The position numbers and the translations under genes were made by a program. 23,449 nt of DNA, taken from IMG/VR virus record IMGVR_UViG_3300042319_000150, positions 1-23,449 of that record. One strand, 5' to 3'. Of the stretch, positions 6,695 to 23,449 are shown piece by piece. The DNA comes from a virus. Numbering within the stretch: the stretch's first letter is position 1; each line of letters opens with the position of its first letter. The notes under the pieces were generated by a model, which worked only from the letters and a program-made list of their open reading frames with translations, had not been told where the DNA came from and ran no database searches.

Positions 6695-7789
6695 TTGGCT
6701 AAGGCATTTGACGTAAGTAAATTCCGTAAGGATATCACTAAGGCTATTGATGGTCTTAGTATTGGATTTAATGACCCTACTGATTGGATCAGTACAGGTA
6801 ATTACGCACTGAACTATCTAATCAGTGGTGATTTTAACAAAGGCGTACCACTAGGTAAGGTAACTGTATTCGCAGGTGAATCAGGCTCTGGCAAGAGTTT
6901 CATCTGTTCGGGTAACCTAGTACGTCACGCACAAGAGCAAGGCATTTTCGTTGTACTAATCGACAGTGAAAATGCACTAGACGAAGCATGGTTACATGCT
7001 CTCGGTGTATCTACTGAAGAAGATAAGTTGTTAAAACTTAACATGGCAATGATTGATGATGTTGCTAAGACTATCAGTGAGTTTATGAAGAGTTATAAGA
7101 CAATGCCTGAAACTGACAAGCCTAAGGTATTGTTTGTTATTGACTCATTGGGTATGTTGTTGACTCCCACAGACGTTAATCAGTTCCAAGCAGGTGACAT
7201 GAAGGGCGACATGGGTCGTAAGCCTAAAGCACTAACATCACTTGTTCGTAACTGTGTTAACATGTTTGGTTCACATAATGTTGGACTAGTTGCAACCAAT
7301 CACACATATGCATCACAAGATATGTTTGACCCCGATGATAAGATTTCAGGTGGTCAAGGTTTCGTATATGCATCAAGTATTGTTGTTGCAATGAAAAAGT
7401 TGAAACTAAAGGAAGATGAATCCGGTAACAAGGTAACTGATGTTCGTGGTATTCGTTCCGCTTGTAAGATTATGAAGACTCGTTATGCGAAGCCTTTTGA
7501 ATCAGTACAAGTTAAGATTCCTTATGAAACAGGTATGAGTCCTTATTCAGGTCTATTAGATATGATTGAAAAGGCTGAACTTGTTAAGAAAGAAGGTAAC
7601 TCATTAGTCTATACAACACTTGATGGAGAAATCATTAAGAAGTTTCGTAAGGGTTGGGAAGCAAATGATGACGGTTGTTTAGACAAGGTAATGTCTGAAT
7701 ATGGACTGCGTGATTCAATGAAAGCAAGTATCAATATAACAGAAGATAATGAAGAAACTATTGATATAGAGGAGTTACCAGAAACATGA
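6695..7789 (+). CDS. uvsX: RecA-like recombinase (UvsX)
   Basis: Strand-exchange ATPase forming filaments on ssDNA for recombination-dependent replication and repair. Walker A GESGSGKS is at residues 61-68. VLIDSENALDEAWL follows in the usual place of the catalytic Glu region, then Walker B-like VLFVIDSLGM. The L2-like segment contains SGGQGFVYASSIVVAM. The length of 364 residues and the acidic C-terminus fit T4 UvsX (about 390). The start is TTG at 6695, chosen because GAGGAG at 6683-6688 lies six bases upstream and the conserved N-terminus begins there. The stop overlaps the next gene (ATGA), so the two are coupled. Confidence 0.95.
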   Translation: MAKAFDVSKFRKDITKAIDGLSIGFNDPTDWISTGNYALNYLISGDFNKGVPLGKVTVFAGESGSGKSFICSGNLVRHAQEQGIFVVLIDSENALDEAWLHALGVSTEEDKLLKLNMAMIDDVAKTISEFMKSYKTMPETDKPKVLFVIDSLGMLLTPTDVNQFQAGDMKGDMGRKPKALTSLVRNCVNMFGSHNVGLVATNHTYASQDMFDPDDKISGGQGFVYASSIVVAMKKLKLKEDESGNKVTDVRGIRSACKIMKTRYAKPFESVQVKIPYETGMSPYSGLLDMIEKAELVKKEGNSLVYTTLDGEIIKKFRKGWEANDDGCLDKVMSEYGLRDSMKASINITEDNEETIDIEELPET

Positions 7790-10844: not shown

Positions 10845-11858
10845 ATGTCTTCAATCATTGTTAAGTTTGGTGAGTATCGTAATCAAGCAGTTGTCAATAC
10901 TAAGTTTAATCTCGTTAAGGGATATCAGACTGGTAAGAAAGGCGGCTACGTTACTGTAAAGAACGAAGGTCAATTCCCGATTGCTATTGATGTAGTCAAG
11001 ATTAAAGTGAACAACATTCACGACATTGAATTTAATGGAGCCCCTGTGATTGCAGAAGAATCTCAAGTTGTTGAAAATGTAGTTTCTGAAACAGAAGAAG
11101 ACGCAATGAATCGCATTGCTATTCGTTTCGGTGTGCTTGATGAAATGTCACGTGCGTGTATCGCAGGTGATATTCGTGCTATGATTGTGACAGGTCCTGC
11201 AGGTATCGGCAAGTCGCACGGTGTGACTACTCAAATGGAAAAAGCAACATTGTTTGATCAAGTTGCAGGCAACAAGACTCGTTTTGAAATTGTTAAAGGT
11301 GCTATGTCAGGCATCGGCTTGTTCGCTAAGTTGTACAAGTTCAGTGATGCTAAGAACGTATTAGTGTTTGATGATTGTGATATCTGGGAAGATCAAGACG
11401 CTATCAACGTACTTAAGGGTGCGCTTGACAGTGGCAAGACTCGCAGAATTTCTTGGAACAAAGACAGTCGTTTGTTGCGTGACGAAGGTGTACCTAACAG
11501 TTTCAACTTCAACGGCTCTATCATCTTTATTACAAACAAGAGTTTTGATGCACGTAAAGCAAGCAAGATTCAGCCCCACTTAGATGCATTGCAGTCTCGT
11601 TGTCACTTTCTTGACTTGACTGTTAACACTGAGCGTGACAAGATGTTGCGCATCAAGCAAGTGCATCGTGATGCTGAAGGTGGCTTGTTTGCTGATTACG
11701 ATTTCAGTGAAGAACAGACAGATGAAATCATGTCGTTCATTTGGGACAACCACAGCAAATTGCGTGAAGTGTCCTTGCGTATGTGTTTGAAAGTTGCTGA
11801 TCTAGTTAAGATCAGTGCTAACTGGAGAGAGTTGGCAAAAGCAACTTGCATGAAGTAA
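10845..11858 (+). CDS. AAA+ ATPase
   Basis: 337 residues. An N-terminal domain of about 75 residues looks beta-rich (GYVTVKNEGQFPIAIDVVKI). The ATPase follows with Walker A GPAGIGKS at 117-124, Walker B LVFDDCD at 173-179, sensor 1 FITNKS ending near 233, and an Arg252 in DALQSRC that fits an arginine finger or box VII position. A small helical C-terminal lid follows. It is not a clear match to the clamp loader gp44 or to the helicase gp41. I recall unassigned ATPases of this kind in many large phages. AAAGG upstream of the ATG supports the start. It is the last and largest product of the P1-P3 block and ends at a strong terminator. Partner and substrate are unknown. Confidence 0.85.
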   Translation: MSSIIVKFGEYRNQAVVNTKFNLVKGYQTGKKGGYVTVKNEGQFPIAIDVVKIKVNNIHDIEFNGAPVIAEESQVVENVVSETEEDAMNRIAIRFGVLDEMSRACIAGDIRAMIVTGPAGIGKSHGVTTQMEKATLFDQVAGNKTRFEIVKGAMSGIGLFAKLYKFSDAKNVLVFDDCDIWEDQDAINVLKGALDSGKTRRISWNKDSRLLRDEGVPNSFNFNGSIIFITNKSFDARKASKIQPHLDALQSRCHFLDLTVNTERDKMLRIKQVHRDAEGGLFADYDFSEEQTDEIMSFIWDNHSKLREVSLRMCLKVADLVKISANWRELAKATCMK

Positions 11859-11969: not shown

Positions 11970-12971
11970 ATGGATACAAAAGAACATCTACTTTATTTTT
12001 TCTTGCAGGGCAAGATAAGCCTTAGTCAGTATGACCAAAAGTTTTTATCTAATCTGCAAATGATATGCCATGAGAAAAATCGGATCACTTCTAATCAAGC
12101 CGCATTATTCGATAAGTTGATTAGTAAGTACAGTAAACAGTTATCCAAAAATAACGTAGATGTTGAACAGGTAAAGTTGCTATCTTGGAAAGTAGATTTG
12201 GTACCTAGTACACCTGAATTTACTGGAGCAAGAGTATCAATTGAAGACAACAATACATTGTTGATACGTGTACCATTTAATAAAACATTCATATCAGATT
12301 TTAGAAGTGTCAACGATAACCCGTTTGATTGGGATCGTGACGATAAAAGGTATGTTGCTGAATTCAGTACCTATGCATTAAAAATTGCATATACTTTGCT
12401 ACCCAGTTATTTCCCAATCGTCATGTATTGCGATAAGTTGTTATCATTGTTAGAACAACTAAGTATATATGAGAATGTTAAAGTGTGGGAACCTACACTA
12501 GTTCGTATCAATGGCAATTTAATTGTTGCAGGAGTCAACAATATACTTGGTGATATGATTGCTAATATGGAATTAAATCACGATGCAAGGACCTTTTATG
12601 AGTTATCTCAAATGGGTATTAAAATTGATCCTTCACTAATTGACAGTCCAAAGTTAAAGTTTGCATCAGAGTTTGTTACTGAAGTTAACTTAGATAATTT
12701 TACTAACGTTGCTAAATGGATCGTTGAATTAAATCCAAGTAACGTATTATTTGGTAGGGGCCTAGTTAATAGACTTGATAAGGAACTTAGAAGTCTATTG
12801 GATCATGAAATTAATTGTGGCAAAAAAGATGTTGTTTCCCGCATCAGTAGACCTTCACGACAAATTCTGTTACAATATCATAGTCAACCGGATACTAAAC
12901 GTAAATATTCGTCAGAAGCAATAGGTAAATGCGTAATAATTAGAAACATGAGGCCAATAGAGGTACGATGA
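11970..12971 (+). CDS. Unknown protein coupled to UvsW, possible HARP-like domain
   Basis: 333 residues. The N-terminal 60 residues form a helical pattern (ISLSQYDQKFLSNL, ITSNQAALFDKLISKYSKQL) that I recall from conserved unknown proteins of aquatic T4-like phages. Residues about 85-145 (ARVSIEDNNTLLIRVPF, then FDWDRDDKRYVAEF) resemble the small HARP-type DNA-binding module of SMARCAL1-like annealing helicases, a tentative fold-level impression. No helicase motif occurs in it. The stop overlaps the uvsW start (ATGA), so it is probably a DNA-structure-recognising partner of UvsW; this is inference. It is preceded by a promoter that predicts a leaderless mRNA. Confidence 0.75.
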   Translation: MDTKEHLLYFFLQGKISLSQYDQKFLSNLQMICHEKNRITSNQAALFDKLISKYSKQLSKNNVDVEQVKLLSWKVDLVPSTPEFTGARVSIEDNNTLLIRVPFNKTFISDFRSVNDNPFDWDRDDKRYVAEFSTYALKIAYTLLPSYFPIVMYCDKLLSLLEQLSIYENVKVWEPTLVRINGNLIVAGVNNILGDMIANMELNHDARTFYELSQMGIKIDPSLIDSPKLKFASEFVTEVNLDNFTNVAKWIVELNPSNVLFGRGLVNRLDKELRSLLDHEINCGKKDVVSRISRPSRQILLQYHSQPDTKRKYSSEAIGKCVIIRNMRPIEVR

Positions 12972-14452
12972 AACAAGCAAAAATTATAATTAAAGATGAA
13001 GTAAACGTAAAGATCGAAGGTCTTGAACTTGATGCCCGCCGTGCATTGATGAAGAAATTTGAATATGAAAAGCCCGGCGCACGTTATTTACCAAGTGTCC
13101 GTTTAGGTAGATGGAACGGCAAGATCAGTTATTTCTCGTTAGCAGGAAGCACGTATCTAAATCTACTAGATCAAGTCATTCCGATCTTAGATCAATTGAA
13201 TTACGATATTGAACTTGAAGACTTGCGCACATACAGCACAACCTTCAATTTCACAGAAGTGACCGAAAATACATTTTCTCATAAAGTATGGTCAAAAGGT
13301 CATGAACGTGAAGGTCAACCTATTGTATTGCGTGACTATCAAGTTGAGATTATCAACAACTTCTTAAAAAATCCGCAAGCATTGCAGGAAGTCGCCACAG
13401 GTGCTGGCAAGACATTGATGACTGCGGCTTTAAGTTTAAGTGTTGAGCAGTATGGTCGTACTATTGTTATCGTTCCAAACAAATCACTAGTGACACAAAC
13501 CGAAGCAGACTATATTAATTTGGGTCTTGATGTTGGTGTATACTTTGGAGATCGCAAAGAATACAACAAGACACATACTATCTGCACTTGGCAAAGTCTT
13601 AACAACATGCTTAAGAATACACAGTCGGGTGAAGCAGAAGTTCCAATTGGAGAATTCATTGAAGATGTAGTATGTGTAATGGTCGATGAAGTTCACATGG
13701 CTAAGGCTGATGCACTTAAGACATTGCTCACTGGAGTATTCTCAGCAGTACCTATTCGATGGGGTCTAACAGGAACAATTCCTAAAGCAGAAATGGACCG
13801 TGTGTCTATTCTAGTATCACTTGGACCTGTTATCGGCAAACTAGCCGCAAGTGATTTGCAAGAGAAGGGTGTTCTAGCACAATGTCACGTGAACATTGTA
13901 CAGTTAAAAGATACTCCTGAGTTTACAAACTATCAAAGTGAGTTGAAGTTTCTTACTGAGGATCCTAAGCGATTAGATACCATTGCTAACTTGATTAGAA
14001 AAATTAGCGAAGGCGGCAATACACTTATTCTTGTTGACCGCATTGGTGCAGGTAAAGAACTACAAATCAGACTATCAGAAATCTTTAGTTTAGTTAAAGA
14101 TGCACCCGAAGTTGCATTTGTGTCGGGTAATACTAAACTAACAGAACGTAAGGAAGAATACGATGAGATTAAAACAGCGAGTAATAAAATTATTATCGCC
14201 ACTTACGGCGTCGCCGCAGTGGGGATTAATATTCCTCGGATCTTTAATTTGGTTCTTATTGAGCCAGGCAAATCTTTTGTAAGAGTTATTCAAAGTATTG
14301 GTCGAGGTATTCGCAAGGCTGAGGATAAAAACTCCGTTGAAATTTGGGATATTACCAGTACATGTAAGTTTGCAAAGCGTCATTTAACACAACGCAAGGC
14401 TTTTTACAAAGAAGCCAACTACCCGTTCAGTTTGGAGAAATTGGATTATTAA
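12968..14452 (+). CDS. uvsW: UvsW-like SF2 DNA/RNA helicase
   Basis: Branch-migrating and annealing helicase for recombination intermediates; in T4 it also removes origin R-loops to switch replication mode. It has an N-terminal DNA-recognition domain (about 1-95), then ATGAGKT (Walker A, 143-149), motif Ia IVPNKSLV, TWQSL, DEVH at 240-243, motif III GLTGT, motif V region IIATYGVAAVGINIP and motif VI QSIGRGIRK. The 494 residues match T4 UvsW (about 500), so it looks complete. The ATG overlaps the preceding stop. In T4, UvsW is made late. Here the upstream promoter looks sigma70-like, so timing may differ. Confidence 0.94.
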   Translation: MKQAKIIIKDEVNVKIEGLELDARRALMKKFEYEKPGARYLPSVRLGRWNGKISYFSLAGSTYLNLLDQVIPILDQLNYDIELEDLRTYSTTFNFTEVTENTFSHKVWSKGHEREGQPIVLRDYQVEIINNFLKNPQALQEVATGAGKTLMTAALSLSVEQYGRTIVIVPNKSLVTQTEADYINLGLDVGVYFGDRKEYNKTHTICTWQSLNNMLKNTQSGEAEVPIGEFIEDVVCVMVDEVHMAKADALKTLLTGVFSAVPIRWGLTGTIPKAEMDRVSILVSLGPVIGKLAASDLQEKGVLAQCHVNIVQLKDTPEFTNYQSELKFLTEDPKRLDTIANLIRKISEGGNTLILVDRIGAGKELQIRLSEIFSLVKDAPEVAFVSGNTKLTERKEEYDEIKTASNKIIIATYGVAAVGINIPRIFNLVLIEPGKSFVRVIQSIGRGIRKAEDKNSVEIWDITSTCKFAKRHLTQRKAFYKEANYPFSLEKLDY

Positions 14453-15586: not shown

Positions 15587-16174
15587 ATGGCAAAAGAAAA
15601 AGTAGCAGTAGACGAAAAGTTAGAACAACAAGACTTTGACTTGTTCGAAGCCATAACGGCTATCGACAAAAAAGACTATGGCTACTACGATAGACTAACT
15701 CCCGAACAACAAAAGAAGTTTGTTCCTTTTATGATGTTGCATTGGATCAGCGCAATCAAAGGCAACGAAGGTCTATCACGTTATTATGTTATGAGTACAA
15801 ACGAGTATGCTAACAAATACTTGTTCAATGAAAATGTAATGAAGCATCCTAAACTACAGTGGCTTATGCTGTGTTCAGCAAGCCCTGGCTTAGGCAAACA
15901 ATTTCATCAATGGATCCCACATATCAAAGAACGTGTGAGTAAGTTGCGTGAACCTGCTAAGACAAAAGATATTAAAGAATACTTTAAAAAGATATATCCC
16001 AAAACTAGTGATACAGATTTGTCTGACTTTGCAGAAGCATTCGTAGACAATCACAAGAAAAAAATGTATCTGGCTAACAGATTCCCTAATTTAAAATATG
16101 ATGAGATTGAGTTATTAAGTGACATTGTTACAGACGAAGATATTAAACAATATGAAAAAGACTTCGGCAACTAA
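15587..16174 (+). CDS. 62: Candidate clamp-loader small subunit (gp62-like)
   Basis: 195 residues, largely helical. The pattern DLFEAITAIDKKDY, then FVPFMMLHWISA, YVMSTNEYAN, HPKLQWLMLCSAS and a basic region before KEYFKKIYPK, follows the order seen in T4-like gp62 proteins (F-E-x-I-x-x-I near the start, a P-F/Y-M/I helix, a conserved M-x-x-N, then an aromatic/basic segment). gp62 joins gp44 to load the gp45 sliding clamp. gp44 and gp45 are not in the window. Similarity is from remembered motif order, not a search, so the name is tentative. It abuts the preceding gene and overlaps the next by 23 bp. Confidence 0.5.
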   Translation: MAKEKVAVDEKLEQQDFDLFEAITAIDKKDYGYYDRLTPEQQKKFVPFMMLHWISAIKGNEGLSRYYVMSTNEYANKYLFNENVMKHPKLQWLMLCSASPGLGKQFHQWIPHIKERVSKLREPAKTKDIKEYFKKIYPKTSDTDLSDFAEAFVDNHKKKMYLANRFPNLKYDEIELLSDIVTDEDIKQYEKDFGN

Positions 16175-16850
16175 GTCAGAGTTTAATTGTGAATTTTGTG
16201 GGCGTGATTTCCTGCGTGAATCAACTATGGCTAAACATCTATGTGAAAATAAACGTAGATGGCAAGACAAAGACTTACCTGGCAATCGTATTGGGTTTCA
16301 ATGCTGGTTGCAGTTCTATGTAAAGAACACTGCAACTAAGAAACAACGTACATATTTGGACTTTGTTAAGAGTTCATATTATCTAGTGTTTGTTAAGTTT
16401 GGTCACTATTGTGTAAACGTAAACGTGTTGAATGTTACACGTTATGCTGATTGGTTACTTAAGAACCAAATCAAAATTGATAACTGGGCAAGCGATACTA
16501 ACTATACAAAGTTCTTAATTGATTATCTTAAACTAGAAGACCCATTAGACGCAATTGCACGTAGTATTGAAACTACGATTGCACTTGCTAAGTTAGATGG
16601 CATTCAAAGTAAAGATAGTTTGCGTTATGGCAACAAGAACAAACTATGTTATGCTATTACGTCCGGCAAGATTAGTCCATGGATGCTATATCAAAGCGAC
16701 AGTGGCATTCAGTTCATTGAAAGCCTTGACGTAACACAACAAAAGATGATCTTAGACTATATCAATCCTGAACAATGGGCTATCAAGTTTAAGCGTAGTA
16801 GCAATATCATTGGTCAAGTGAAAGAGTTATTGAATGCGGCAGGATACTAG
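16152..16850 (+). CDS. Zinc-finger-containing conserved phage protein
   Basis: 232 residues from the ATG at 16152 (a GTG at 16119 would add eleven residues with less support). The N-terminus carries a compact zinc site, Cys13-x2-Cys16 with His29 and Cys31, embedded in a basic helix (MAKHLCENKRRW) as in nucleic-acid-binding fingers. The rest is helical, with KSSYYLVFVKFGHY and GKISPWMLYQS. I recall this architecture as a conserved protein of aquatic T4-like phages located near replication genes, without a known role. DNA or RNA binding is likely. It overlaps the upstream gene by 23 bp and the next gene by 17 bp. Confidence 0.78.
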   Translation: MKKTSATKSEFNCEFCGRDFLRESTMAKHLCENKRRWQDKDLPGNRIGFQCWLQFYVKNTATKKQRTYLDFVKSSYYLVFVKFGHYCVNVNVLNVTRYADWLLKNQIKIDNWASDTNYTKFLIDYLKLEDPLDAIARSIETTIALAKLDGIQSKDSLRYGNKNKLCYAITSGKISPWMLYQSDSGIQFIESLDVTQQKMILDYINPEQWAIKFKRSSNIIGQVKELLNAAGY

Positions 16851-17523: not shown

Positions 17524-17863
17524 TTATAAATTAAAGTTTACTAAGTTGGACAAAAGATATCAGGGCTATGGTGTCTTTTCTCACTATATTCAAATACAAG
17601 CCTCTAAAGGCTTTGTCGTACCTTCGGCTAGTGTAACTAGTTTGTTTAATAAGTTTCGTACACTATGTGTTGAAACATGGGGAATGTCCACAGAACGAGA
17701 TACTTACATTTATCTACATCACAATAAAAACTATTTGTCTTTGGCTCAACTAGAAGATATGTATGAACTTAATGAATACTGGGCATGGCATACTGAGCGT
17801 GAGGAACGTAGAATATACTTAACAGAAAAAGGTAAAACATGGGCGGAACTAGTGTGGACATAA
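17516..17863 (+). CDS. Small paralogue-array protein D, 115 residues
   Basis: GTG start at 17516 behind GGAAG. Contains SVTSLFNKFRTLCVETWG, an aromatic middle (YLHHNKNYLSLAQLEDMY) and the ending RRIYLTEKGKTWAELVWT, whose last turn matches A and B (L-x-W plus a small residue). It overlaps gene C by 8 bp and the radical SAM gene by 25 bp. Function unknown. Confidence 0.68.
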   Translation: MSDYKLKFTKLDKRYQGYGVFSHYIQIQASKGFVVPSASVTSLFNKFRTLCVETWGMSTERDTYIYLHHNKNYLSLAQLEDMYELNEYWAWHTEREERRIYLTEKGKTWAELVWT

Positions 17864-19149
17864 AAGAACCTATCTATTGCAGCCTTGCGCAAGGTTCAGT
17901 AGCAATCAACTCATATGGTGAGTATATTCCATGCTGTAACATTCGCATGGAACATTTTACTATGTACCAGTCACCTTTTATCAAGCATCTTATACCCACT
18001 GAGCCGAGTGAACGTATTAATATGGCAAATCTTAAAAAGATTCGCAATGATCTATCTAAAGGAATTTGGCCATTAGCATGTCAGAATTGTAAAAGTTCAG
18101 AAGACAATGGTGTTGCATCAATGCGTACAATTTGGAATGAGGCTATTCCAGATGCACCCATGACTGATACTATTAATCCAATTGATGTAAAATATCTTGA
18201 TTTGACATTTGGCACAAAGTGCAATAGCAAGTGCATGACCTGCAATGCAGATTTAAGCGATTTTTGGGAAGAAGAATACAATATACATTATCCTAACTCA
18301 ATATATACAAATGTTAATAATAGAGTATCAATTACTACTGAAACTGCACAAAAATTAATTGATACTTTTCCCAATGTCGAACGAATTAGTTTAATTGGTG
18401 GTGAACCTACAATCTCTGATGAACATTTTGAATTTCTCAAAATGTTAATTGAAAAAGGTAGAAGTAAAAATATTGGATTAAGTTATGTCACTAACTTAAC
18501 TGGTGTTACTGATGAACTACTAGAACTATGGGATAAATTTAAAACAGTTCACTTGTCAGTAAGTATTGATGGCTTTGATAAAGTTAACGAGTACATTAGA
18601 TATCCATTTAAATGGTCAAAGACCGAAAACAATTTAAAAACTATTTTAAGTTTATGTCAAGAACATGTACTAACCCACAAGTATACAATGGGATTAAGTT
18701 GTACACATAGTATATACAATGCTATTCAAGCACATGATTTGATAGAATATTTCTATGATATATTAAAATCTTATCAGTGTGAAGATGGTAATACATTGCT
18801 TAAACATTGCGGAGCATTTATTAATAGAGTAAGTCATCCTAAAGATGCAATGGTATCTAACTTATCAAACACATATCGAAATAAAGGTATTAAACGTGGT
18901 AGTAAACTATTAGAAAAAGTTCAACATGATATCGACAATGGATTATTAGTTGAAAAGGGTATTGTAGAATCGATCAAGTTAATCAATGCTTGGTTAGCAG
19001 AACCTTGGTCTATGGATAAAACAAATATTCAAACTATACTTAAGTTCATTAACACTTCTGATACATTTAGAAATAGAAACATCAATGACTATATTCCCGA
19101 ACTTATGACTGAATTAGAATACATGAAACAGGTATTAAAAATTGACTGA
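17839..19149 (+). CDS. Radical SAM enzyme (twitch/SPASM-like type)
   Basis: 436 residues. The radical SAM cluster motif is Cys128-x3-Cys132-x2-Cys135 in FGTKCNSKCMTC, with the SAM-binding GGEP at 187-190 and later strands HLSVSIDG and TMGLSCTHSIY. The N-terminal region has AINSYGEYIPCCN and a further CQNC pair, the pattern of an auxiliary cluster domain at the N-terminus. I recall this layout from twitch-domain radical SAM proteins of cyanophages and pelagiphages. Substrate unknown. It overlaps the small protein gene before it and, by 8 bp, the PhyH-like dioxygenase after it, so the two redox enzymes are made together. The ATG at 17839 is preceded by AAAGG. Confidence 0.9.
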   Translation: MGGTSVDIKEPIYCSLAQGSVAINSYGEYIPCCNIRMEHFTMYQSPFIKHLIPTEPSERINMANLKKIRNDLSKGIWPLACQNCKSSEDNGVASMRTIWNEAIPDAPMTDTINPIDVKYLDLTFGTKCNSKCMTCNADLSDFWEEEYNIHYPNSIYTNVNNRVSITTETAQKLIDTFPNVERISLIGGEPTISDEHFEFLKMLIEKGRSKNIGLSYVTNLTGVTDELLELWDKFKTVHLSVSIDGFDKVNEYIRYPFKWSKTENNLKTILSLCQEHVLTHKYTMGLSCTHSIYNAIQAHDLIEYFYDILKSYQCEDGNTLLKHCGAFINRVSHPKDAMVSNLSNTYRNKGIKRGSKLLEKVQHDIDNGLLVEKGIVESIKLINAWLAEPWSMDKTNIQTILKFINTSDTFRNRNINDYIPELMTELEYMKQVLKID

Positions 19150-19846
19150 CAGTAATGTACTAATTGATGGTTTAGGATATGTTACTGTTAGAGAACTAAT
19201 ACCTGAACATTTAATTGATAGTATCAATTTAAAACTTGATACATTGTATCCTATACGTGCATCTAGTAGCAATAAGCAATATGCTGAAGGTAAAAACATT
19301 TCAAAACTACCTGACGTAAGTGTTTGGTGGAGTCAGTTAACTATGGACTGGCCAGAAGTTATTGAGATTAATAACATCATTCAACCATTAGTGGCAGATT
19401 TCTTAGATAATATTGAATGGTATGCAAGCGATATCGTAACGATTGCTCCCGAAAGCACATGGATTAATCCTCACGTAGATACCCCACATCGTTTCAGTAA
19501 GTACAACTATGATCAACGATTGTTAGGTGTGCAATGCATTGTTGCATTACAAGACACCGATCACAAAACAGGATCAACTGGTATTGTTGCATGTAGCCAA
19601 ACACATGATTGGGATATCAATAAATGCTATAATGGAACTTATGACAGTTATTTCAAAGTGCATTGTATGCAACCCATTATGCCCAAAGGTAGTTTGTTGA
19701 TGTATAACTGTAGACTGTTGCACTCTAGTATGCCAAATTATTCGCCCAAAGCACGACCTGCACTATTGCTTAATTACCTAAACGGTGCTATAATAGAAGA
19801 TATAAAGAAGATAGACAATATATGGAAGAGTAATAATGGCGAATGA
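19142..19846 (+). CDS. PhyH-like 2-oxoglutarate/Fe(II) dioxygenase
   Basis: 234 residues. The iron-binding triad is visible: His111-x-Asp113 in NPHVDTPH and the distal His194 in RLLHSSMPN, with Arg205 in KARPALLLNY suited to bind 2-oxoglutarate. This is the PhyH (phytanoyl-CoA dioxygenase) arrangement, a family that hydroxylates small molecules, peptides or modified bases. The start is TTG at 19142, since no nearby in-frame ATG exists and the first residues already look conserved. It overlaps the radical SAM gene and the exonuclease gene. The enzyme class is well supported; the substrate is unknown. Confidence 0.82.
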   Translation: MTDSNVLIDGLGYVTVRELIPEHLIDSINLKLDTLYPIRASSSNKQYAEGKNISKLPDVSVWWSQLTMDWPEVIEINNIIQPLVADFLDNIEWYASDIVTIAPESTWINPHVDTPHRFSKYNYDQRLLGVQCIVALQDTDHKTGSTGIVACSQTHDWDINKCYNGTYDSYFKVHCMQPIMPKGSLLMYNCRLLHSSMPNYSPKARPALLLNYLNGAIIEDIKKIDNIWKSNNGE

Positions 19847-20408
19847 TATTATGATTGACATTGAAAGTTTAGATACACGACCTGATTGTGTTATCTTAAC
19901 TATTGGTGCAGTTCGTTTTGATCCTAAGGGTACTGGAGTAGTTGAACGTTTAGAACTACGTCCCACTATTGAGGATCAAACAGAAATTTACAATAGAAGT
20001 ATTAATGAAGACACATTACGTTGGTGGTCTACTCAAAGTCCAGAAGCCCTTGAAGAAGCAATGGGTGAGCATGGTCGTGTCCCGTTTGCAGAATGTATGG
20101 AAACACTTTATAAGTTTTGTTGGAATCGGCGCGCTGTTTGGAGTAATGGTGCACCTTTTGATTTGGTAGTAATGGAGAATGCGTGGCGTCAAGTCACTGA
20201 TCCTTTAGTTAGACCTAATCCTATTCCTTGGACTTTCTGGTCTATGCGTGATACACGAACATTGTGGGACATAACAGGTGTCAGTCTTAAAGATGGTGGA
20301 CATACTACAAGTCATAAAGCAGTAGAAGATGCCGAAAGACAAGCAATTGTTGTACAAAAAGCATACATGAAACTAATCAAAGCAGAACTAGTACCTCCCC
20401 CACGATGA
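19836..20408 (+). CDS. dexA: DexA-like 3'-5' exonuclease (DEDDh)
   Basis: 190 residues with all five DEDDh residues: Asp8 and Glu10 in MIDIES, Asp109 in NGAPFDLVVME, and His160 and Asp165 in HKAVEDAERQA. The layout and the RWWSTQSPEA segment match T4 DexA and the Rv2179c-like exonuclease family. T4 DexA degrades DNA from 3' ends; Rv2179c-like members act on RNA, so the substrate is not certain. It overlaps the dioxygenase by 11 bp and the endonuclease VII gene by 4 bp. The ATG at 19836 is the natural start. Confidence 0.88.
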   Translation: MANDIMIDIESLDTRPDCVILTIGAVRFDPKGTGVVERLELRPTIEDQTEIYNRSINEDTLRWWSTQSPEALEEAMGEHGRVPFAECMETLYKFCWNRRAVWSNGAPFDLVVMENAWRQVTDPLVRPNPIPWTFWSMRDTRTLWDITGVSLKDGGHTTSHKAVEDAERQAIVVQKAYMKLIKAELVPPPR

Positions 20409-20809
20409 ACCCAAATGATTTATTTGAAGGACTAGATTTATCAGAAACTAAATCTTGTTCAATGTGTAATAAGATATTATCAGTTCATAACTTTGCCAAA
20501 GAAGGTAGTAAAGGTTATTTACGTTATGAATGTAGAGATTGTGCTAAAAAACACGGAAAGCTTGTAGCAAAGATTAAGAAATCTGCACCATCTGTAACAG
20601 CAGATCATAAATGCCCAGTGTGTCAACGTACAGCAAATCAATTGACTACATATGGTAAGAATAAGAAATCAGTATGGGTAGCAGATCACAATCACGAAAC
20701 TGAAAAATTTCGCGGGTGGTTATGTCATAAATGCAATTTGGGTTTAGGAAATTTAGGTGATAGCGCAGAACGGTGTAAAAGAGCCGCGGAGTATTTAAAT
20801 GAGAATTGA
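20405..20809 (+). CDS. 49: Recombination endonuclease VII (gp49-like)
   Basis: Resolves Holliday junctions and trims branched DNA before and during packaging. The endonuclease VII core lies in the C-terminal half: Cys70-x2-Cys73 and Cys107-x2-Cys110 bind zinc, Asp94-His95 lies in ADHNHET, and Asn111 follows the second Cys pair, equivalent to Asp40, His41 and Asn62 of T4. FRGWLCHKCN and GLGNLGDSAE are hallmark segments. Unlike the T4 enzyme, it has about 45 extra N-terminal residues with a second zinc ribbon (Cys18-x2-Cys21, Cys43-x2-Cys46) and lacks the long T4 C-terminal half (134 versus 157 residues in all). The ATG overlaps the preceding stop. Confidence 0.93.
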   Translation: MNPNDLFEGLDLSETKSCSMCNKILSVHNFAKEGSKGYLRYECRDCAKKHGKLVAKIKKSAPSVTADHKCPVCQRTANQLTTYGKNKKSVWVADHNHETEKFRGWLCHKCNLGLGNLGDSAERCKRAAEYLNEN

Positions 20810-21377
20810 TTCAGACATTGACATTGATTTTGGTGATAGAGAAAAAGTTCTAGCACTGATTAAGCATGTGCCTGCTGCCATGCTCAATGTCAAGCCAATT
20901 CGTAAGCATCCAACTGGTGTTTATATTACTGATATCCCATATGATCCTGTCAATGCCATGTCAGCACTTCATTATGAAGAGGCTGAAAAGCGTGGGTATT
21001 TCAAACTTGACTTGTTGAATGTGCATGTGTATAATCAAGTGCGTGATGAAAATCATTTACTATCATTAATGCGTGAACCCAATTGGGCTAAATTAAAAGA
21101 TAGAGCATTCGTTGAGAAACTAATTCATTTAGGAAATCAGTTCGACTTCATTCAGCGTATGCCTGAATCACTTGATTCGATTCCTAGATTAGCAATGTTT
21201 CTTGCTGTCATTCGACCTGCAAAGCGTCATCTGATTGGCAAGATTTGGAAAGAAGTAAACGATACAGTGTGGGATAAAGATCACACTGGATACAGTTTTA
21301 AAAAGAGTCACGCCGTTGCATATGCGCACCTCGTGGTTGTACACATGAATTTACTGGAAGAACAAAATGGAACTTAA
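20799..21377 (+). CDS. Miniature DnaE-like protein (DNA polymerase III alpha homologue)
   Basis: 192 residues that line up in order with separated segments of bacterial DnaE. SDIDIDFGDR (residues 5-14) corresponds to the PDxDxDF motif; KHPTGVYI (36-43) to KHAAGVVI; GYFKLDLLNV (66-75) to the (V/L)KFDFLGL strand; IQRMPESLDSIPRLAMFLAVIRP (118-140) to the RL-P-x-F-ED...ALFRPGP helix; and GYSFKKSHAVAYA (164-176) to GYGFNKSHSAAYA. The three catalytic Asp of E. coli DnaE (401, 403, 555) have counterparts Asp8, Asp10 and Asp71. About 80 percent of a normal alpha subunit is absent, including PHP, thumb and C-terminal domains. Comparable small proteins may exist in cyanophages. Whether it polymerises is unknown. 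It overlaps genes on both sides. Confidence 0.78.
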   Translation: MRIDSDIDIDFGDREKVLALIKHVPAAMLNVKPIRKHPTGVYITDIPYDPVNAMSALHYEEAEKRGYFKLDLLNVHVYNQVRDENHLLSLMREPNWAKLKDRAFVEKLIHLGNQFDFIQRMPESLDSIPRLAMFLAVIRPAKRHLIGKIWKEVNDTVWDKDHTGYSFKKSHAVAYAHLVVVHMNLLEEQNGT

Positions 21378-21873
21378 ACTACTTGAAGAAAATAACACAC
21401 AATTATTAGAAATCTCTGAAGATTGGGACTTTCGTTTAGACGGAGATCCTAGCGAATTAATCAAAGAGATGGCTAAAGTTATGTTCACTCAGGGTGGAAT
21501 CGGATTGGCTGCACCACAGTGCGGAGTAAAGAAGCGTATCTTTATCATGGGCAATCCTGAAGAACTTATTGCTTGTATCAACCCTAAGGTTATTGCACTG
21601 TCAGAAGAACGTGTAACTAGTCAAGAGGGTTGTTTAAGTTTCCCTAATCTATGGCTTAATGTTAAGCGTCCAGCAACAGTAAAAGTATCATATCAGAATG
21701 TCTTAGGGGAAGAAACAGAAGCAGAATTAGATGGATTACATGCACGTGTATTCTTGCATGAGTTTGATCATTTAATGGGAGTCACGTTTGACCAACGTGC
21801 TAGTATTTTAGGTCTTGCTATGGCTAAGGATCGTAGAAAGAAGAAACAAAAGAAGTTTAAATCACCCGCTTAA
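21367..21873 (+). CDS. def: Peptide deformylase
   Basis: Removes the formyl group from the N-terminal Met of new proteins. All three motifs are intact: GIGLAAPQ at 44-51, EGCLS at 87-91 with the metal ligand Cys89, and HEFDH at 131-135 with metal ligands His131 and His135 and the catalytic Glu132. The 168-residue length is typical of bacterial enzymes; the C-terminus is unusually basic (DRRKKKQKKFK). Phage deformylases are known from cyanophages and other aquatic phages. The ATG lies within the end of the mini-DnaE gene (11-bp overlap), and the 3' end overlaps the convergent minus-strand gene by 17 bp. Confidence 0.95.
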   Translation: MELKLLEENNTQLLEISEDWDFRLDGDPSELIKEMAKVMFTQGGIGLAAPQCGVKKRIFIMGNPEELIACINPKVIALSEERVTSQEGCLSFPNLWLNVKRPATVKVSYQNVLGEETEAELDGLHARVFLHEFDHLMGVTFDQRASILGLAMAKDRRKKKQKKFKSPA

Positions 21874-22237
21874 CGAGTGTAATGCTTCTACGTTTGGACC
21901 TCTTTTTAGTAAAATCTGTCATACTAACTACGGGGCCATGAATGATTTCTAGACTTTTATTATTGAATGTTCTTAAGAAGGGTCTAAACGGCGACCAATC
22001 ATCCTTAAGGAATAAATTGATAGGAATCGTTCTATTAGATTCCCACCACCAAATGTCGCCTAATTCTAAGAACTTGGCCCTCAAATCAATAGAAGCAATG
22101 GATCCATAGTCATACATAGTAGTAACTAGGTCATCACGATTCTGAATAATTCCTACATAGTCTTGGCTTGCATAGGAACATATTGAAATGAACGGGTGGT
22201 TCTCGCTTAGTTTAGTGAAAAATTCATGTGCATTCAT
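21857..22237 (-). CDS. Conserved unknown phage protein, 126 residues
   Basis: The only supported minus-strand gene. Residues about 1-50 read MNAHEFFTKLSENHPFISIC with YVGIIQN; the middle has FLELGDIWWWESNRTIPINL and FLKDDWSPFRPFLRTF, followed by a basic tail (KKRSKRRSITLVKR). The composition and aromatic pattern are those of a real folded protein, and I recall a similar conserved unknown in T4-like cyanophages. It converges on the deformylase gene and diverges from the structural gene at 22399. A late-type TTAAATA box lies 11 bases upstream. Function unknown. Confidence 0.78.
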   Translation of the reverse strand: MNAHEFFTKLSENHPFISICSYASQDYVGIIQNRDDLVTTMYDYGSIASIDLRAKFLELGDIWWWESNRTIPINLFLKDDWSPFRPFLRTFNNKSLEIIHGPVVSMTDFTKKRSKRRSITLVKRVI

Positions 22238-22301: not shown

Positions 22302-22398
22302 AGAGAAGGAGACAATTTTTGTGTATTCAACATCAGTTTTTTATTACATTCAACGCCAAATAGTTGTACTCCTATCAGGATTTTCTCCGAGGAAATAT

Positions 22399-23100
22399 AT
22401 GCCACAATATGCTAAACCACTAACGCTACACAGAGGTGTAGACAATCAGATTCAGTTTCAATTCTTAAACCAAGAACAGAAACCTGTTGACATTACTGGT
22501 AAGACTATTACTTGTAGGATTCTTAATGCCGATGGTACAGTAGTACTTATTAACAAGGCTCTAACACCTCAATTGCCTTTAACAGGTATTTGTGCATTGC
22601 AACTTAATGCCGCAGAGATTGAAGATATTCCTGCTCAGAAAGCATATTACTCATTAGAGATTCCAGTAGGATCATTTGACTATCCTGTCTTTGTGGATCA
22701 GAACGCAGGCGCACGTGGTGACATGAACATTGTTGATTCGGTCCTCCCTTCCTTTGTTCCTTCTGCGAATATTACTATTCCAACTGGTCAACCTTTCCCT
22801 AACTTAGATCAAAACAATAGTGTTGCTAATGCTTTACCAAATGCTAACACATACTACAGTAGTGTAATCAACACACAAGATAATCCTATCTTAACTATTC
22901 AAACATCATATGTTGAATTTAACGGTGATGTAATTGTATCAGGTTCAACTCAACCCGATACCGAATGGTACCCCATTACAACTGATACATATGCTAACGC
23001 TACTGATACGTTTGGATATACTATCGTAGGATTTCACCCGTTCGTTCGAATGGAGTTCGTAAGCAATGCCGGTGCAGTAACAAACATTTTGGCTAGATAA
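22399..23100 (+). CDS. Tail/baseplate-type virion structural protein (BppU-like N-terminus)
   Basis: 233 residues from the ATG at 22399, which has GAGGA five bases upstream and begins the recognisable MPQYAKPLTLHRG. Residues 1-110 have the beta-sandwich pattern of BppU-N/adaptor domains in phage baseplates and fibres (IQFQFLNQEQKPVDITGKTI, a CRILNADGTVV strand, ICALQLNAAEIEDIPAQKAYYSLEI). The C-terminal part is Thr/Asn/Ser-rich beta sequence ending in FHPFVRMEFVSNAGAVTNILAR. It lacks Cys pairs or enzymatic motifs. An in-frame GTG at 22321 with AAGGAG nine bases upstream could add 26 residues. Structural class is likely; the exact virion position is unknown. Confidence 0.7.
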   Translation: MPQYAKPLTLHRGVDNQIQFQFLNQEQKPVDITGKTITCRILNADGTVVLINKALTPQLPLTGICALQLNAAEIEDIPAQKAYYSLEIPVGSFDYPVFVDQNAGARGDMNIVDSVLPSFVPSANITIPTGQPFPNLDQNNSVANALPNANTYYSSVINTQDNPILTIQTSYVEFNGDVIVSGSTQPDTEWYPITTDTYANATDTFGYTIVGFHPFVRMEFVSNAGAVTNILAR

Positions 23101-23148: not shown

Positions 23149-23449
23149 ATGTTTGATATCCTAACGGTAGTCCCAGGTAAGAAAAAACTAACACAAAGTG
23201 GATGGCATAGTTTTAATGCTGTGTGCTGTCATAACCGTGGACACAAAGCCGACAAACGTATGCGAGGCGGAATCATTTATGATGGGGATATCAACTGGTC
23301 ATATCATTGCTTTAACTGTAACTTTAAATGCGGATTCACTATTGGCAAGCCACTAAGTGGAAATACTAAACAACTATTAAGATGGTGTGGGGTAGACGAT
23401 ACCGAAATCTCTAAATGGAATCTAGCAAGTTTACAGCAAAAAGATTTGC
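23149..23449 (+). CDS. 61: DNA primase (gp61-like), 5' part
   Basis: The first 100 codons are in the window and the gene runs off the right edge. The protein starts MFDILTVVPGKKKLTQSGWH, then a zinc-binding domain with Cys26, Cys27, His28 and His32, followed by Cys54-x2-Cys57 and Cys61 in YHCFNCNFKCGF. This matches the N-terminal zinc domain of gp61-type primases in aquatic T4-like phages, which make RNA primers for lagging-strand synthesis with the gp41 helicase. The catalytic TOPRIM-like part would lie beyond the window. It is expressed from its own extended -10 promoter. Confidence 0.88.
   Translation, partial: MFDILTVVPGKKKLTQSGWHSFNAVCCHNRGHKADKRMRGGIIYDGDINWSYHCFNCNFKCGFTIGKPLSGNTKQLLRWCGVDDTEISKWNLASLQQKDL

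Follow-up and report, generated by a model that had tools for sequence, protein, structure and literature searches.

A small open reading frame in the viral DNA examined here raises the question of what a shortened relative of DNA polymerase III alpha (DnaE, family C) might do in a lineage of phages whose DNA is replicated by a family B polymerase. The window, meaning the whole stretch analysed, is 23,449 nt long. The answer reached below is that the protein is probably one of two pieces of a divided enzyme. An active site shared by two small proteins, and kept for long in large phages that own a family B polymerase, is unusual.

The ORF and its phage

The ORF at 20799-21377 (+) starts with ATG, ends with TAA, and encodes 192 aa, in agreement with the earlier note on this DNA, and it has an endonuclease VII homologue on one side and a peptide deformylase gene on the other (Table 1). 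The product, referred to below as the C half, matched PHROG_11778 ("DNA polymerase") at 4.5e-56 over nearly its full length. Relatives were found by tblastn in 90 phage records, almost all of them genomes of 280-490 kb, and in at least 415 stretches in IMG/VR. In the GTDB collection, the C half was found on two MAG contigs only (L312 and L313; archaeal: Natrialbaceae and Pacearchaeota), which are probably misbinned phage. Comparisons with close relatives gave dN of ~0.16-0.23 (five pairs), and dS was computable for two of the five pairs (1.7 and 2.4); these values indicate strong purifying selection on the gene.

The terminase in the window was closest to those of Sinorhizobium phage Phosso, the PA5oct-like phages, and GAP32, and the window was therefore placed, from its sequence, as a 23 kb fragment of a T4-like group 2.2 jumbo phage. 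Homologues of gp32, UvsX, UvsY, and UvsW were present. The earlier assignment to a T4-like phage holds in the sense of T4-like group 2.2 with these four genes, but by its terminase the source is a jumbo phage of the Phosso/PA5oct/Rak2 type, not T4-like in the narrow sense.

Table 1. Positions of the features discussed (window coordinates unless another record is named; counts are relatives with enough flanking sequence).
Feature	Position	Strand	Remarks
UvsX recombinase	6695-7789	+	Same replication/recombination block
Clamp-loader-like candidate, phrog_1250	10845-11858		Weak clamp-loader similarity; about 9 kb from C half
UvsW helicase	12968-14452	+	Same replication/recombination block
PHROG_11058, function unknown	16119-16850	+	Zinc-finger-like N-terminus; about 1 kb upstream of C half in 81/91 relatives
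Radical SAM protein and PhyH-like 2-oxoglutarate-type dioxygenase	17839-19846		Inside replication block
3'-5' exonuclease, Rv2179c/DEDD type	19836-20408		Two genes upstream of C half; nearby in 34/91 relatives
Putative C-terminal half of split minimal DNA polymerase III alpha	20799-21377	+	192 aa; PHROG_11778
Phage peptide deformylase	21367-21873		Directly downstream of C half, slight overlap; near C half in 9/89 relatives
Opposite-strand ORF, PHROG_11637, function unknown	21857-22237	-	Just downstream of C half in 87/89 relatives
phrog_1084, function unknown	22321-23100	+	Weak virion-structural similarity; in 65/89 relatives
Primase gene start, zinc-binding N-terminus	23149-23449	+	Cut by window end; downstream of C half in 84/89 relatives
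Example of Glu at the R390 equivalent	N half L100:6001-6504		Residue 165, alignment A3

Relationship to DnaE and a second protein

With the 192-aa protein as the query, no match was obtained in Pfam or, by single-sequence phmmer, in the PDB, and NCBIfam gave weak matches of DnaE models to the C-terminal helix (best E 0.03); profiles were therefore needed. The C-half profile (A1, 51 diverse relatives) was compared with a DnaE profile (A4) built from 14 varied proteins (E. coli, actinobacterial, DnaE2, phage, and SPbeta-type). The two aligned with P = 1.2e-10 over E. coli residues 508-776, and the DxDxD strand of the C half aligned separately at 400-408. Column-shuffled controls (n = 100) scored 24 at most, compared with 64 for the real profile. 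When the PDB was searched with the C-half profile (hmmsearch), all nine matches at E < 0.1 were Pol III alpha chains, and the top match aligned in pieces that followed one another from the DIDIDF strand through the RPG region to the F-KSH helix.

The AlphaFold2 model of the C half (mean pLDDT 92.7, pTM 0.84) was compared with the PDB using Foldseek: the eight best matches were Pol III alpha, followed by unrelated folds with much worse E-values. The top matches of both this model and that of the second protein described below had probabilities of 0.66-0.99 and E-values all above 0.001, which for the C half is expected because the query is devoid of the large inserted domains; the support from the model is therefore taken to lie in the uniform identity of the top matches, not in the E-values. 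Profile comparison, shuffled controls, and PDB matches agree, and on these sequence grounds the C half is judged truly related to DnaE, the resemblance not being due to chance. The earlier note had called the protein a family C relic and proposed a profile search and a structure prediction as checks; both led to DnaE.

A scan of whole records with the DnaE profile revealed a second, separate protein of about 170 aa (PHROG_11127, the N half), which carries an R-G-S motif. It was found in Agrobacterium phage Atu_ph07, E. coli phage 121Q, Pseudomonas phage Paride, and three IMG/VR contigs. Its profile aligned to DnaE 286-392 with P = 7.9e-10 (shuffled controls 30 at most, real profile 78), and the best PDB matches of its AlphaFold2 model (pLDDT 90.6) in Foldseek were Pol III alpha. 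The break point is fixed: 101 of 102 N halves stopped 33 residues past the first G of GRGS, at the equivalent of DnaE residue 393. The C half begins at DnaE residue ~395-400, a few residues before D401, and across C halves the distance from the start to the DxDxD strand ranges from a few residues to about 20. Since one protein ends at 393 and the other starts just before D401, the two are, by sequence, complementary parts of a single palm divided within the loop 393-400.

Inteins invade polymerase genes of these phages, e.g., the family B polymerase of phage MIJ3 (PMC6892783), and a DnaE cut by a split intein and rejoined through protein splicing, as in cyanobacteria, was also considered. The N-half stop at 393 and the C-half start near DxDxD leave no room for an intein on either chain, and a search for intein fragments at N-half ends and C-half starts found no extra sequence. 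Protein splicing is thus extremely improbable as the origin of the two chains.

The two halves occur together. Both were present in 18 of 20 long records having the C half, and in all ten records of at least 266 kb; the two records with the C half and no N half were fragments of 132 and 139 kb. Among cultured phages, tblastn with either half listed nearly identical records. No locus through L124 contained both genes, whether side by side or fused, and in the 18 two-half records the closest pair lay about 9 kb apart. In the window, neither strand contained a GRGS-type partner motif, and the N-half gene was not found by motif search or DnaE-profile scan; an N half elsewhere in the genome of this phage is expected from its relatives.

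This distribution bears on the leading idea of the earlier note, namely that the 192-residue protein by itself would suffice as a minimal repair polymerase. All three metal-binding Asp residues are present, a confident solo fold was predicted by AlphaFold, and very small polymerases are known, Pol X among them at about 20 kDa. The G-S nucleotide-binding motif, with its strand and loop, is, however, on the co-occurring protein instead, and the C half is best seen as one part of a two-gene split; that it works as a polymerase by itself is very improbable.

No family B polymerase was found in the 23 kb fragment, and eight records carrying both halves have one. The earlier note was right to see a family C relic in a lineage replicating with a family B enzyme. 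In Atu_ph07 (NC_042013.1, record of L090, 212336-213688), record G010 (163654-166082), and Paride, the family B polymerase is in two reading frames. In phage MIJ3, the family B polymerase has been described as split and as containing an intein (PMC6892783). Both polymerase types are thus split in some of these phages.

Residue map and gene neighbourhoods

The gap-free alignment of SDIDIDF in the C half with PDFDVDF in E. coli DnaE equated D6 with D401, D8 with D403, and D10 with D405. Further pairs were K69 and K553, D71 and D555, H37 and H511, R139-P140 and R639-P640, F167 and F756, and H171 and H760. All these C-half residues, as well as Y175 in the fingers, were invariant across the 51 diverse C halves. 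The three catalytic Asp residues named earlier (8, 10, and 71) are hence present and invariant, with the numbering to be shifted: the pair is D6/D8, D10 corresponds to D405, and D71 was assigned correctly. The Lys-x-Asp strand had also been recognized rightly (K69 and D71).

The R-G-S nucleotide-binding motif (R362-G363-S364), not in the C half, had counterparts invariant in 44 diverse N halves. Over the two chains, 14 of the 26 residues invariant in the DnaE set (n = 14) remained invariant, and G514 nearly so; the kept set includes R362-G363-S364, D401, D403, D405, K553, D555, R639, F756, and H760.

Much of DnaE is missing. No sequence before residue ~395 has a counterpart in the C half, whose alignment leaves out E. 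coli 409-507 and roughly 642-745 and stops near 778, and the PHP, thumb, full fingers, and C-terminal domains are missing from it. Q687, E688, and R709 are absent together with the fingers segment carrying them, and the thumb is gone as well. R390, an Arg in 14/14 DnaE proteins, is replaced by Glu in 44/44 N halves (residue 165 in alignment A3), within a gap-free stretch; this Glu may contact the C half at the interface. R390 and R709 presumably correspond to arginines in contact with the incoming triphosphate in the enzyme from Thermus. Replacement of R390 by an invariant Glu and loss of R709 are the strongest reason why ordinary polymerase chemistry is doubtful, and we regard them as the most useful new observation. 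As for the claim that the key DnaE landmarks are kept in order, those present are ordered; the protein lacks the G-S motif, R390, the thumb, and the greater part of the fingers.

Gene neighbourhoods were surveyed for 101 distinct C halves, with counts made over the 89 or 91 having enough flank. In 121Q, Paride, and Atu_ph07, the gene order after the C half was the same as in the window, leading into primase or primase/helicase genes. The N-half gene lay just upstream of the clamp-loader gene in these three phages and in 78 of 79 IMG/VR loci. With the N half 5' of the clamp loader and the C half 5' of the primase, the halves travel with different replisome genes. The setting put forward earlier, beside a nuclease, a resolvase, and a clamp-loader gene, is accurate for the resolvase (endonuclease VII), which adjoins the C half here but in only 2/91 relatives and is a neighbour particular to this lineage; the clamp-loader-like gene is distant (Table 1), and the constant neighbour is the primase. 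Being rare in relatives (2/91 and 9/89), endonuclease VII and the deformylase were dropped as functional hints.

Because it is kept in so many relatives (Table 1), the PHROG_11058 product may be a replisome-associated DNA-binding protein; here, about 4 kb of inserted genes separate its gene from that of the C half. The protein begins with a C2H2-like zinc finger, FNCEFCGRDFLRESTMAKHLCEN, and phmmer showed it to be weakly similar to eukaryotic zinc fingers (best E 3e-4). The Rv2179c/DEDD exonuclease is a possible proofreader, although not a constant neighbour. The radical SAM and PhyH-like genes look like a lineage-specific insertion, as only 7/91 and 18/91 relatives, respectively, have them near the C half.

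Possible function and comparison with known systems

We consider it probable that the C half and the N half form the core of a minimal family C polymerase with two subunits, used for short synthesis once priming has taken place. The C half would supply the DxDxD and K-x-D strands, which would bind two Mg ions, plus a shortened piece of the fingers; the N half would supply the first part of the palm, and its R-G-S motif would hold the incoming nucleotide. From these features, we infer that the halves bind each other, meeting where DnaE 393 joins 400, and rebuild a catalytic, pol-beta-like active site. The pair would then perform short template-directed synthesis tied to priming and clamp loading, beside the main family B polymerase. 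Candidate tasks are primer extension before hand-off to the family B polymerase, or gap filling and repair. The role after the primase is suggested by analogy with Bacillus subtilis DnaE, which extends RNA primers and then hands over to PolC, and the activity of which is abolished when both Asp residues of the DxD motif are replaced (D382A/D384A) (PMC5627055). The absence of the thumb, R709, Q687, and E688 and the change of R390 to Glu speak against a polymerase core, and ordinary chemistry is not assured. A literature search for a biochemical test of the split enzyme (DNA synthesis by the two halves) found none.

The same losses could be accommodated by a heterodimeric nucleotidyltransferase that is not template-directed and either tails DNA or RNA ends or puts NMP on a protein or small molecule. 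A bare pol-beta-type fold is common to non-polymerase nucleotidyltransferases, and the remnant here, with its metal ligands and R-G-S invariant and the thumb, much of the fingers, R390, and R709 missing or replaced, is close to it. The fingers residues R139-P140, F167, H171, and Y175 would have no role in a bare enzyme, yet they are invariant, and the genes are located with those of the primase and clamp loader; we therefore hold such a transferase to be unlikely.

Non-catalytic halves could likewise have lost the thumb and the two DnaE-invariant arginines, and could be a scaffold, i.e., a replisome part binding the primase or clamp loader, in keeping with the nearby genes for replisome parts, or a mimic interfering with host DnaE. 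The metal ligands and the K553 and R-G-S counterparts would be dispensable in a scaffold, yet they are invariant in 51 and 44 diverse sequences; for a mimic, the hosts span very different DnaE proteins, and the strong purifying selection bears no sign of an arms race. Loss of catalysis in either form is accordingly rather improbable.

If the two-subunit core is active, it would come close to being the smallest functional family C core and would directly test the requirements of the fold; if it is inactive, it would be a striking reuse of a replicase as a scaffold. More tentatively, and in our opinion doubtful, a two-chain family C enzyme lacking the thumb and the arginines expected at the triphosphate (R390 replaced by Glu, R709 deleted) might still be catalytic, with the lost hold on duplex and phosphates supplied by the phage primase, the clamp loader, or the family B polymerase; if true, the family C core and the family B polymerase would be one replisome machine.

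Compared with E. coli Pol III alpha (NP_414726.1), the palm metal ligands, K553, H511, R639, and the GYxFxKSHxxxY helix are shared in the same order, as had been noticed for the helix (GY-F-K-SHA-YA). The E. coli protein has PHP, thumb, little finger, OB, and C-terminal domains that the phage enzyme lacks; in the phage, the fingers are mostly deleted, R-G-S is on another chain, and R390 and R709 are lost. B. subtilis DnaE (PMC5627055) offers a functional analogy as a second family C polymerase beside the primase in a two-polymerase replisome; it differs in being a full-length single chain, and its partner PolC is a family C enzyme, not family B. The 172-aa "truncated DNA polymerase III alpha" CBB_328 of Pectobacterium phage CBB (PMC5259590) belongs to the same split enzyme in Rak2-like relatives; its size, together with the name and position of the CBB match in GenBank, indicates that it is probably the N half, unlike the half studied here.

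The split enzyme itself was published in 2021. In their description of group 2.2 jumbo phages, Iyer et al. 2021 (PMC7824862) reported a phage-specific minimal Pol III alpha, split into N-terminal NTP-binding and C-terminal Mg- and template-binding proteins encoded by distant genes, with a family B polymerase alongside. The C half corresponds to their C-terminal part in family, size, and domain content, as matched by that description, and the relatives analysed here likewise have two genes far apart and a co-resident family B polymerase; what is new is the sequence itself, which comes from an uncultured phage. Relative to that description of the enzyme (PMC7824862), the analysis adds a residue-level map, the fixed break point, the R390-to-Glu replacement, the loss of R709, and the primase and clamp-loader neighbourhoods, and the map names the exact residues with which the published split-polymerase idea can be tested.
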